Shown here piece by piece: positions 10,392-21,714 of a stretch of DNA of 22,289 nt. Under the pieces are notes generated by a model that saw nothing but the letters and a program-made list of their open reading frames with translations, had not been told where the DNA came from and ran no database searches. The position numbers and the translations under genes were made by a program. The stretch's first letter is position 1. Each line of letters begins with the position of its first letter. This DNA is from a bacterium. GTDB taxonomy: Bacteria; UBA4055. The DNA lies in contig JAKQBN010000023.1 in assembly GCA_029559475.1 (NCBI GenBank), positions 1 through 22,289 on the forward strand, in the 5' to 3' direction.

Positions 10392-11360
10392 ATGGAAAAG
10401 GCTTTTAAAATACTGGTTATTTGCGCAGCGGCAGCATGGCTTATATCTTCATGCGAAAGCAGCGATTCGGCCGGCTATAAAGAGAAAATGACGCTTTTCT
10501 GTTACGCGAAAGCAGATTCGACGATCGACAGCCTGTTTCTTATGCGAACGGGAGATGTGAATGAATCTATCAGCCTGAATTCTCTCGGTATTTCAGGCGC
10601 TGCCGTCGTTCTTTTTGAAAAATCTGCTGAGGATTATGCGTATTCAGTTGTCGATACGCTTCACGAGTATTCCGAAAGGCCGGGGATTTATTATCTGGCC
10701 GAGAATGAATTCCCCGGAGGCTTCAAGACCGGATATTTCTATAAAATTGAAGCTGAGCATTCCGATCACGGTCACGTTTATGCAGAGACCGTCTGTCCGC
10801 CCGAGCTTGATGATATATTAGTTAGAAATTACAAAACCGGGCAGGAAATGGTAGCGATGCAGGTCGATCCGGCTGCTTCAGATACAGTTTATTACAGAAG
10901 AGGCAAGGGCTTTGACGATGTTAAACTGATCACCTGTTCTTTCGATTCACTATCTATCATACTTGACGGAAGAATAGCTTCCTACAGACTCGTGCCTGAT
11001 GATATTTGCCGGACGGATACTTCGTTCTGGCTTGAAGACACGACTGAAACGGTATGGGAGGATTATCCGACTGAGACCCAGATATTCAAGGACAGGGAAA
11101 AGTACGGATCGGATTTTTTTGAATATTACATACGCAGTATTTCTATCAACTGGTACGCGCTCTACCATTCCGGGATACATACGCTTGTTCTGTCTTCATG
11201 CGACAAGGTTTTCAGATCTTATATGGAAACGGTTTACGGCGGTGAGGAAAGATATTCTAATGTCGTAAACGGTCTTGGGCTTTTTTCGCTTTCAAATTCT
11301 TCATCCGTCAGGAGCAGGTACAGAGTGTATGTAAAATCACTTGAGAACAAGTACCCGTGA
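10392..11360 (+). CDS. DUF4249-like lipoprotein, partner of the TonB receptor
   Basis: A 322-aa protein with a lipoprotein signal: MEKAFKILVICAAAAWLISS then Cys21 (lipobox LISSC). The mature part is beta-rich and has no catalytic motif I recognise. Features such as SGAAVVLFEKSAEDYAYSVV, PGIYYLAENEFPGGFKTG and a FYKIEAEHSDH segment followed by a Pro break resemble DUF4249 lipoproteins. Those are commonly encoded directly after TonB receptors in Bacteroidetes and are presumed to sit on the outer membrane. It starts 9 nt after the receptor stop with AAGGA as SD and ends the operon. The stop codon TGA at 11358 is also the first base-paired triplet of the structured element that follows. The family assignment is moderate; lipoprotein and receptor partner are better supported. 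Confidence 0.66.
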   Translation: MEKAFKILVICAAAAWLISSCESSDSAGYKEKMTLFCYAKADSTIDSLFLMRTGDVNESISLNSLGISGAAVVLFEKSAEDYAYSVVDTLHEYSERPGIYYLAENEFPGGFKTGYFYKIEAEHSDHGHVYAETVCPPELDDILVRNYKTGQEMVAMQVDPAASDTVYYRRGKGFDDVKLITCSFDSLSIILDGRIASYRLVPDDICRTDTSFWLEDTTETVWEDYPTETQIFKDREKYGSDFFEYYIRSISINWYALYHSGIHTLVLSSCDKVFRSYMETVYGGEERYSNVVNGLGLFSLSNSSSVRSRYRVYVKSLENKYP

Positions 11361-11496
11361 TAATACCCATATATAACATCCTCCAGATCACATTTTGAGG
11401 CATTAATTTTATTATGGATTTGAACTGAATCGTACCGGCAGGCAAAGATGGTTAGAAAATATGATCTTCCGGATTTATATAAGGGTATATTTATCA
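11358..11496. repeat. Long imperfect inverted-repeat element, copy 1
   Basis: The arm 11358-11396 pairs with 11456-11496. In order the matched blocks are TGATAA, TACCC, TATATAA, ATCC, AGATCA and ATTTT, interrupted by short bulges or mismatches, about 33 pairs over some 40 positions. The 59-nt region between the arms includes CATTAAT, GATTTGAA and CGTACCGGCAGGCAAAGA followed by TGGT. This core is shared with copy 2, 147 bp downstream, while the arms differ. Its left arm begins on the stop codon of the lipoprotein gene. The active strand is not certain. It could be a structured RNA, a 3'-UTR element or an interspersed DNA repeat. Confidence 0.8.
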
Positions 11497-11511
11497 TAAT
11501 TGGGTTATATA

Positions 11512-11631
11512 TTTGCACATATAATTCTTCAAAACGGATTTTAAAACATTAATAGTTAAGTAGATATGAAAATGGCGCGTACCTGCAGGTAAAGACGGTA
11601 GAAAATCCGTTCCTCAAAATATATGTGCAAA
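11512..11631. repeat. Long imperfect inverted-repeat element, copy 2
   Basis: TTTGCACATATA (11512-11523) pairs perfectly with TATATGTGCAAA (11620-11631), and AACGGATTTT (11533-11542) with AAAATCCGTT (11602-11611). The 8-9 nt between the two helices are unpaired. The interior has CATTAAT, GATATGAA and CGTACCTGCAGGTAAAGA followed by CGGTAG, aligning with copy 1 over about 65 nt. The palindrome ACCTGCAGGT (11581-11590) could form a small inner hairpin. It ends about 25 nt before the -35 box of the tRNA promoter. It is the same kind of element as copy 1 with different, but still complementary, stems. Confidence 0.8.
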
Positions 11632-11655
11632 CATAAATGAATATGATTAATCAAA

Positions 11656-11684
11656 TTGACTTGAATATATAAAAACCTTATATT
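11656..11684 (+). promoter_or_regulatory. Sigma70-type promoter of the tRNA pair
   Basis: TTGACT (11656-11661), 17-nt spacer, TATATT (11679-11684). Transcription should begin near 11691, about 14 nt before the 5' end of tRNA-Ser. Together with the terminator at 11881-11910 this defines a two-tRNA transcript. Confidence 0.75.
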
Positions 11685-11704: not shown

Positions 11705-11788
11705 GGAGACGTGGCCGAGCGGCTTAAGGCGCACGCCTGGAAAGCGTGTTTCCGCAAGGAAACGTGGGTTCGAATCCCACCGTCTCCG
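11705..11788 (+). tRNA. tRNA-Ser (anticodon GGA)
   Basis: The sequence folds as a class II tRNA. The acceptor stem is GGAGACG/CGTCTCC with discriminator G at 11788, and the D-arm has GGCCGAGCGG. The anticodon stem is CACGC/GCGTG around the loop CTGGAAA, giving anticodon GGA. A long variable arm (TTCC/GGAA around GCAA) and a T-arm (GTGGG/CCCAC with TTCGAAT) complete it. The CCA end is not encoded (GCAT follows), so it must be added after transcription. It reads UCC/UCU serine codons. Confidence 0.96.
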
Positions 11789-11803
11789 CATCGAAATAGA
11801 CTT

Positions 11804-21286: not shown

Positions 21287-21469
21287 ATGAAGACGATAAC
21301 GATCAATATAGATAATGAAAAGCTGGTGGATAAGGTCACTTGGTTTTTGGAACATTTGAAAAATGACGGGCTGGAAATAGTCTCGAAAGAAGACCTTGAC
21401 GATTTAAAATTACTTAAAGCTACGAGAAGTGAAGATGCGATATCTTTCGAAGAGTATCTTAAGAAATGA
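21287..21469 (+). CDS. Type II antitoxin (RelB/ParD-like), partner of RelE/ParE-type toxin
   Basis: A 60-aa protein: an N-terminal beta strand and helix (MKTITINIDNEKLVDKVTWFLEHLK) followed by an acidic C-terminus ending FEEYLKK. An acidic C-terminal tail with a FEEYL-type end is typical for antitoxins that wrap around RelE/ParE toxins. It overlaps the toxin ORF by ATGA (21466-21469), the usual antitoxin-first order with coupling. The DNA-binding part is not one I can assign to a named family. It sits behind the consensus promoter and the palindromic operator. Confidence 0.82.
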   Translation: MKTITINIDNEKLVDKVTWFLEHLKNDGLEIVSKEDLDDLKLLKATRSEDAISFEEYLKK

Positions 21470-21714
21470 AAATCTTTATTCGTAAAAGCGCAATAAAAGA
21501 CCTGAATAAAATTGATCCCGACAAACGAAATTTGATACATGAATCAATCCTTAAACTCACTGACTTTCCAAATGTCGCTAATATTAAGAAACTAACTAAT
21601 TTCGAACCTGCTTTCAGGCTGAAAACAGGGGATTACAGAGTACTGTTTGATGTTATTGACGATACTGTATTTATCGGCAGAGTCCTGCACAGAAAAGAAA
21701 GCTATAAAAAATAA
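21466..21714 (+). CDS. RelE/ParE-family toxin
   Basis: An 82-aa basic protein with the RelE/ParE fold signature: MKIFIRKSAIKDLNKIDPDKR at the start, a middle KKLTNFEPAFRLKTGDYRVLF and a C-terminal FIGRVLHRKESYKK. The GDYRVLF and HRKESY motifs are the typical ends of the RelE sheet. RelE toxins cut mRNA at the ribosome and ParE toxins poison gyrase; the HRKE..Y end is more usual for RelE-type mRNA interferases, but the assignment between the two is not secure. It is translated from an ATG overlapping the antitoxin stop. Confidence 0.92.
   Translation: MKIFIRKSAIKDLNKIDPDKRNLIHESILKLTDFPNVANIKKLTNFEPAFRLKTGDYRVLFDVIDDTVFIGRVLHRKESYKK

Follow-up and report, generated by a model that had tools for sequence, protein, structure and literature searches.

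A lineage-specific family of intergenic palindromes with a conserved core and variable complementary arms in Candidatus Delongbacteria

Results

The window analyzed here, 22,289 nucleotides in full, belongs to a 2.28-Mb genome of Candidatus Delongbacteria (G000) that is assembled in 83 contigs and about 92% complete. A lipoprotein ORF ends at position 11360, and a promoter-like site of tRNA genes, with TTGACT and TATATT as −35 and −10 boxes, is found at 11656–11684 on the forward strand (10 of 12 positions in a consensus scan). The tRNA-Ser gene starts at 11705 and the tRNA-Arg gene at 11803. Between the lipoprotein gene and the promoter-like site lie two copies of an element, c1 (11365–11487) and c2 (11511–11633), both on the forward strand and each about 123 bp long. 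The first starts 5 nt 3′ of the lipoprotein stop codon. The promoter-like site is 23 nt 3′ of c2, outside the element, and marks the downstream limit of the array. Elsewhere in the window, a small ORF at 21466–21714 resembles, as judged by eye, a RelE/ParE-type toxin.

Each copy is a long imperfect stem, consisting of an outer helix P1, an internal loop, and an inner helix P2, around a core of about 65 nt; c2 has the same architecture as c1 but different arms. Using cmsearch, c1 and c2 score 100.7 and 92.9 bits with covariance model R1 (built from 16 copies), and 94.8 and 82.3 bits with model R2 (built from 53 copies). The core includes CATTAAT on its 5′ side (11401–11407 in c1 and 11547–11553 in c2, forward strand), read from the sequence and conserved in alignment A4, and a 22-nt sequence, CGTACCnGCAGGnAAAGAnGGT. 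The latter is present twice, 147 bp apart, against a chance expectation of 0.01 matches in the window. It corresponds to the most conserved core block of c1, CGTACCGGCAGGCAAAGATGGT (11431–11452), and of c2, CGTACCTGCAGGTAAAGACGGT (11578–11599), both on the forward strand and recovered by the pattern scan with no mismatches. The initial annotation of this DNA had described two elements with cores 147 bp apart and about 65 nt in common, each core inside its own long stem with arms unlike yet complementary, and with a lipoprotein gene on one side and a tRNA promoter on the other. The pattern scan and the positions above bear out that description. Folding c1 and c2 singly gives a modest gain over shuffles, with z about −2.1 for each. 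Across the family, the pairing of the arms despite their differing sequence is far above chance.

The element is repeated throughout the genome. The core pattern, allowing up to three mismatches, occurs at 17 places in G000, while a reversed control pattern occurs at none. R1 finds 43 matches and R2 finds 47, a few of which are antisense re-matches of the same palindrome; the genome has about 40 copies. The copies split into sequence subfamilies, the largest of which in G000 has arms GCTCGACATAACTTCATCTC...AAACGGACCC, and one subfamily has been amplified there. Many copies are paired head to head with a spacing of about 20 or 70 nt, and some are nested. Of 12 relatives in the same GTDB family, 6 gave matches in covariance-model searches (7 of 13 counting G000); of 48 genomes outside that family, none did. 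Such a search had been proposed in the initial annotation, and it did yield further covarying copies; of the guesses made there, the right one was that the elements are intergenic repeats belonging to a family in a lineage of FCB type. The comparison with Rfam proposed alongside it, run for the window and for other subfamilies, returned nothing at gathering score and nothing noteworthy at E values up to 10, and a known RNA family was rejected on that ground.

A wider pattern scan of contigs gave repeated matches only in two Delongbacteria assemblies, UBA12480 (contigs DMTS01) and SRR8868559_bin.84 (contigs CALMWI01), whose matches and scores are the same as those of G002 and G001, respectively. 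The other matches were mostly singletons and were taken as chance; 12 were checked with the model and all were empty. Viral contigs and plasmids had no match, and carriage by phage or plasmid was rejected. The family is specific to one family of Candidatus Delongbacteria and previously undescribed, in the sense that it is new to the databases searched, while its general kind, mobile intergenic palindromes, is already known. As far as we could find, no family of intergenic palindromes had been described in Delongbacteria before.

The arms covary strongly. Among 53 copies, double changes are found in 25 of 26 arm pairs, 333 cells in all. The covariation score is 0.622 compared with 0.197 for shuffles, with none of 500 shuffles reaching it, and a slid-partner control gives at most 0.141. 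Arm pairs take all of the top 21 places in the MI-APC ranking. No core pair is among them, MI-APC gave no helix within the core, and inner core helices were rejected. The earlier reading that pairing is retained while arm sequence changes is therefore correct, and strongly so. Nor do the copies have the identical arms and variable cores of a MITE-type repeat. MITE copies share terminal inverted repeats, whereas here the core is conserved and the arms differ between subfamilies.

One transition in a Watson–Crick pair yields G-T or A-C equally easily, and an RNA helix tolerates only G-T. The imperfect arm pairs comprise 26 G-T and 38 A-C, with no G·U excess. The ratio does not change when the young subfamily (4 and 5), all others (22 and 33), or a non-redundant set (16 and 21) is counted alone. 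The stems of tRNAs from these genomes and relatives, by comparison, have 40 G-T and 2 A-C (Fisher p 2.6e-9 versus the elements), a control that is somewhat biased in that tRNA detection favors pairs, as does the covariance model of the elements. The mismatch counts favor neither strand, as expected of a palindrome maintained in DNA. Because there is no G-U excess, unlike in the tRNAs of the same genomes, the palindrome is probably not selected as RNA.

Using simple longest-ORF gene calls, 52 of 60 classified copies adjoin at least one gene 3′ end. Forty-three of the 60 (72%) have the same sense as the upstream gene and about 28% do not. Of the 46 copies whose upstream gene is in sense, 24 begin no more than 30 nt from the stop codon of that gene. 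Often a copy occupies the space separating two convergent stop codons; eight of 60 lie between divergent genes. The neighbors are housekeeping genes, for example polA, rnr, smpB, ftsK, rpoD, and obg, with names assigned by eye from translations. A riboswitch or leader RNA was rejected, since the copies do not precede one gene class and most follow stops. A coding remnant was likewise rejected on inspection by eye: the copies come after stop codons, and the reading frame across the core varies.

Congeneric species do not all carry the same copies. A concatenated protein query was used to locate, in G001 or G002, the gene 3′ ends that carry the element in G000; most of those recovered have none there. 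Orthologous regions lacking the element in the sister species include those at polA, rpoD, ftsK, obg, rnr, and plsC, among others; for rpoD and ftsK, the empty site can be seen beside a terminator or a promoter. The smpB 3′ end has an element in G002 too, and the copies at this locus, which we call old, have partly decayed arms. Behind an MBL-fold gene, the element is found in four genera (G000, G003, G008, and G011). At shared loci the arms are often lineage-specific, which therefore points to replacement or homogenization.

The whole c1–c2 array is missing in G001. The lipoprotein is 86% identical in amino acids between G001 and G002, and 65% between either and G000. Since G000 is the most distant of the three, either the array disappeared from G001 or it was acquired separately. 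Between G000 and G002, c1–c2 together with about 38 nt up to the tRNA −35 box (window 11358–11660 versus locus L067) are about 90% identical, and the arms are far better conserved than the adjoining lipoprotein gene. This conservation suggests local constraint or function, or horizontal exchange of the intergenic block.

At two orthologous loci, a segment flanked by inverted repeats has flipped between species. The c1 orthologue in G002 is inverted between unchanged outer sequences, while the c2 orthologue keeps its orientation. At a methyltransferase (RlmI-like) locus, the element in G000 is opposite to that in G001 and G002, with the flanks kept. A search for a promoter facing a gene in the flipping segment yielded no more than a weak match (9/12) within the c1 core, which is at chance level for the region. 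It is unusual for one family to combine a conserved core with arms that vary yet stay complementary and with flipping in place.

We looked for an enzyme that could mobilize the family in three element-bearing congeneric genomes, G000, G001, and G002. Neither a Y1 transposase (PF01797) nor a reverse transcriptase (PF00078) is present in any of them, with G000 about 92% complete, and a reverse transcriptase as mobilizer was rejected. G000 has one IS110-family transposase gene (PF02371; contig C77, 23171–23431), about 4 kb from an element; G001 and G002 have none, and IS110 was rejected as well. The TA..TA offset is not consistent in 53 copies, no shared end motif was found among the copies, and no clear duplication is seen at the element-free polA and rpoD sites, compared by eye. 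Overall, these searches link the family to no transposase, no reverse transcriptase, and no consistent target duplication.

Discussion

Taken together, we favor the view that these are ~125-bp quasi-palindromic, non-coding mobile intergenic repeats, similar in kind to ERIC, YPAL, and REP, whose arms are likely kept complementary at the DNA level. The presence and absence of copies, along with the subfamily structure, show that the family is mobile, or at least gaining and losing copies. In G000, the amplification of one subfamily has been mainly at gene 3′ ends, often as head-to-head pairs. Template switching in inverted repeats is known to homogenize arms and invert the spacer (PMC8604942), and it can mimic compensatory changes (PMC8794818). 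Repeated switching of this kind, or conversion between arms, is the likely cause of the arm covariation and the core inversions alike: a change in one arm would be transferred to its partner, and occasionally the stretch between them would be flipped. We infer it because of the symmetric G-T and A-C mismatches and the two in-place inversions, and the homogenization from pair statistics rather than from single events on a tree. The published work describes a process, not a family, with spacers of 2–5 bp compared with about 60–100 bp here. Several observations count against this reading: no mobilizing enzyme or consistent target duplication is linked to the family, the c1–c2 arms are far better conserved between G000 and G002 than the adjoining gene, and some bulges and internal loops survive that repeated correction between arms ought to remove. 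As for the conserved core, it probably serves as the site recognized by whatever spreads or uses the element.

A more specific proposal, which we hold to be improbable though worth stating, is that the core is a site bound or cleaved in the folded hairpin, as ssDNA or RNA, by a Delongbacteria-specific machine without known relative, which spreads, pairs head to head, and flips the hairpins. If true, it would be a mobile-hairpin system with neither a Y1 transposase nor a reverse transcriptase.

The initial annotation had read the retained pairing as the mark of selection on structure. A structured RNA or 3′-UTR element, whose core would be a loop that binds a ligand or protein and whose stem would be maintained by selection acting on the transcript, would fit the strong arm covariation with a conserved core, the predominance of copies sense to the upstream gene, often within 10 nt of the stop codon, and the retention at orthologous sites such as that of the MBL-fold gene. 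However, A-C mismatches are at least as common as G-T, no helix covaries inside the core, and Rfam holds no match. The element inverts in place relative to the gene, comes and goes between sister species, lies between divergent genes in some cases, and in more than a quarter of copies is not in sense orientation. The RNA reading of the covariation is thus unsupported, and we consider it unlikely that such an RNA explains the family. This matters because stem pairs that covary are commonly taken to prove a functional RNA, and here a DNA repeat family shows such covariation in textbook form. The mismatch spectrum and inversions point to maintenance of the palindrome at the DNA level, and the family warns against taking covariation as proof of RNA. 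The ratio of G-T to A-C, set against that in tRNAs, is a simple check by which RNA candidates found in metagenomes could be screened for such an artefact.

A structure that serves both strands would escape part of this argument. If the element were a bidirectional 3′-end structure for convergent genes, either a terminator or an mRNA-end hairpin, pairing would matter on both strands, neither G-U nor A-C would be favored, and inversion would be neutral. The many copies between convergent stop codons, and the orientation flip at such a convergent locus, agree with this. On the other hand, the element is without a U-tract, a terminator scan finds none in it, and at rpoD it lies beyond an existing terminator. 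Of the many gene ends, only about 40 have it, and the corresponding genes of sister species manage without it; we regard this explanation as rather improbable. Least likely of all, and very doubtful, is an attC-like or inverton-like role, in which the element would be a recombination substrate folded as a single strand, or an invertible switch, and a dedicated recombinase would flip it: a conserved core with variable arms and in-place inversion would suit it, but arms that differ between copies make a common recombinase site in them unlikely, no shared end motif was found, and the inversions do not aim a promoter at one gene.

Mobile palindromic repeats, the reading we prefer, have precedents in other lineages. 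ERIC (RU-1, 127 bp) and YPAL (RU-2, ~168 bp) are enterobacterial intergenic repeats considered small mobile non-autonomous elements (PMC2759123). Compared by description, the Delongbacteria family is similar in size (100–170 bp range), in its long imperfect palindrome, in its many intergenic copies, and in being non-coding. It differs in belonging to an unrelated lineage and in its conserved core with arms varying between subfamilies, and no clear sign was seen of the TA ends and the duplicated TA target that ERIC and YPAL are reported to have. REP/BIME and REPIN sequences, mobilized by RAYT, lie downstream of genes and between convergent genes, in opposite-orientation pairs and mosaics (PMC3733652, PMC3116915); the preference for gene 3′ ends is the same (PMC3733652), and our family shares the convergent positions and the opposite-orientation pairs. 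However, REPs are 20–40 bp with a GTAG or CGTC tag at the foot. These tags occur at or below chance rate in 53 copies of the ~125-bp element, and the Y1 (RAYT) transposase is absent from the three congeneric genomes. A RAYT-driven REP was rejected for these reasons. Cozzuto et al. (2008) described bacterial stem-loop sequence families, which are also repeated intergenic sequences with a common fold, and proposed a function at the RNA level (PMC2267715). Those are from other lineages, and the mismatch test does not support such a function here.

The family also resembles invertons in having inverted repeats around a segment that flips at two orthologous loci, but it has no convincing promoter in that segment and sits mostly at gene 3′ ends. 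Integron attC sites have conserved AAC/GTT at the hairpin base and form same-orientation arrays, whereas the alignment of our family has no conserved end motif and the pairs are mostly head to head.

Individual copies show some further variation. At L069 (G002, contig C64, 9592–9811), a full element is followed by a partial tandem copy with the core and the 3′ arm but without the 5′ arm. In L041 and L043, and in the outer flank of L018, a small palindrome, CCGGCTTxAGCCGG, lies directly 5′ of CATTAAT and looks like the insertion of an additional, optional hairpin.
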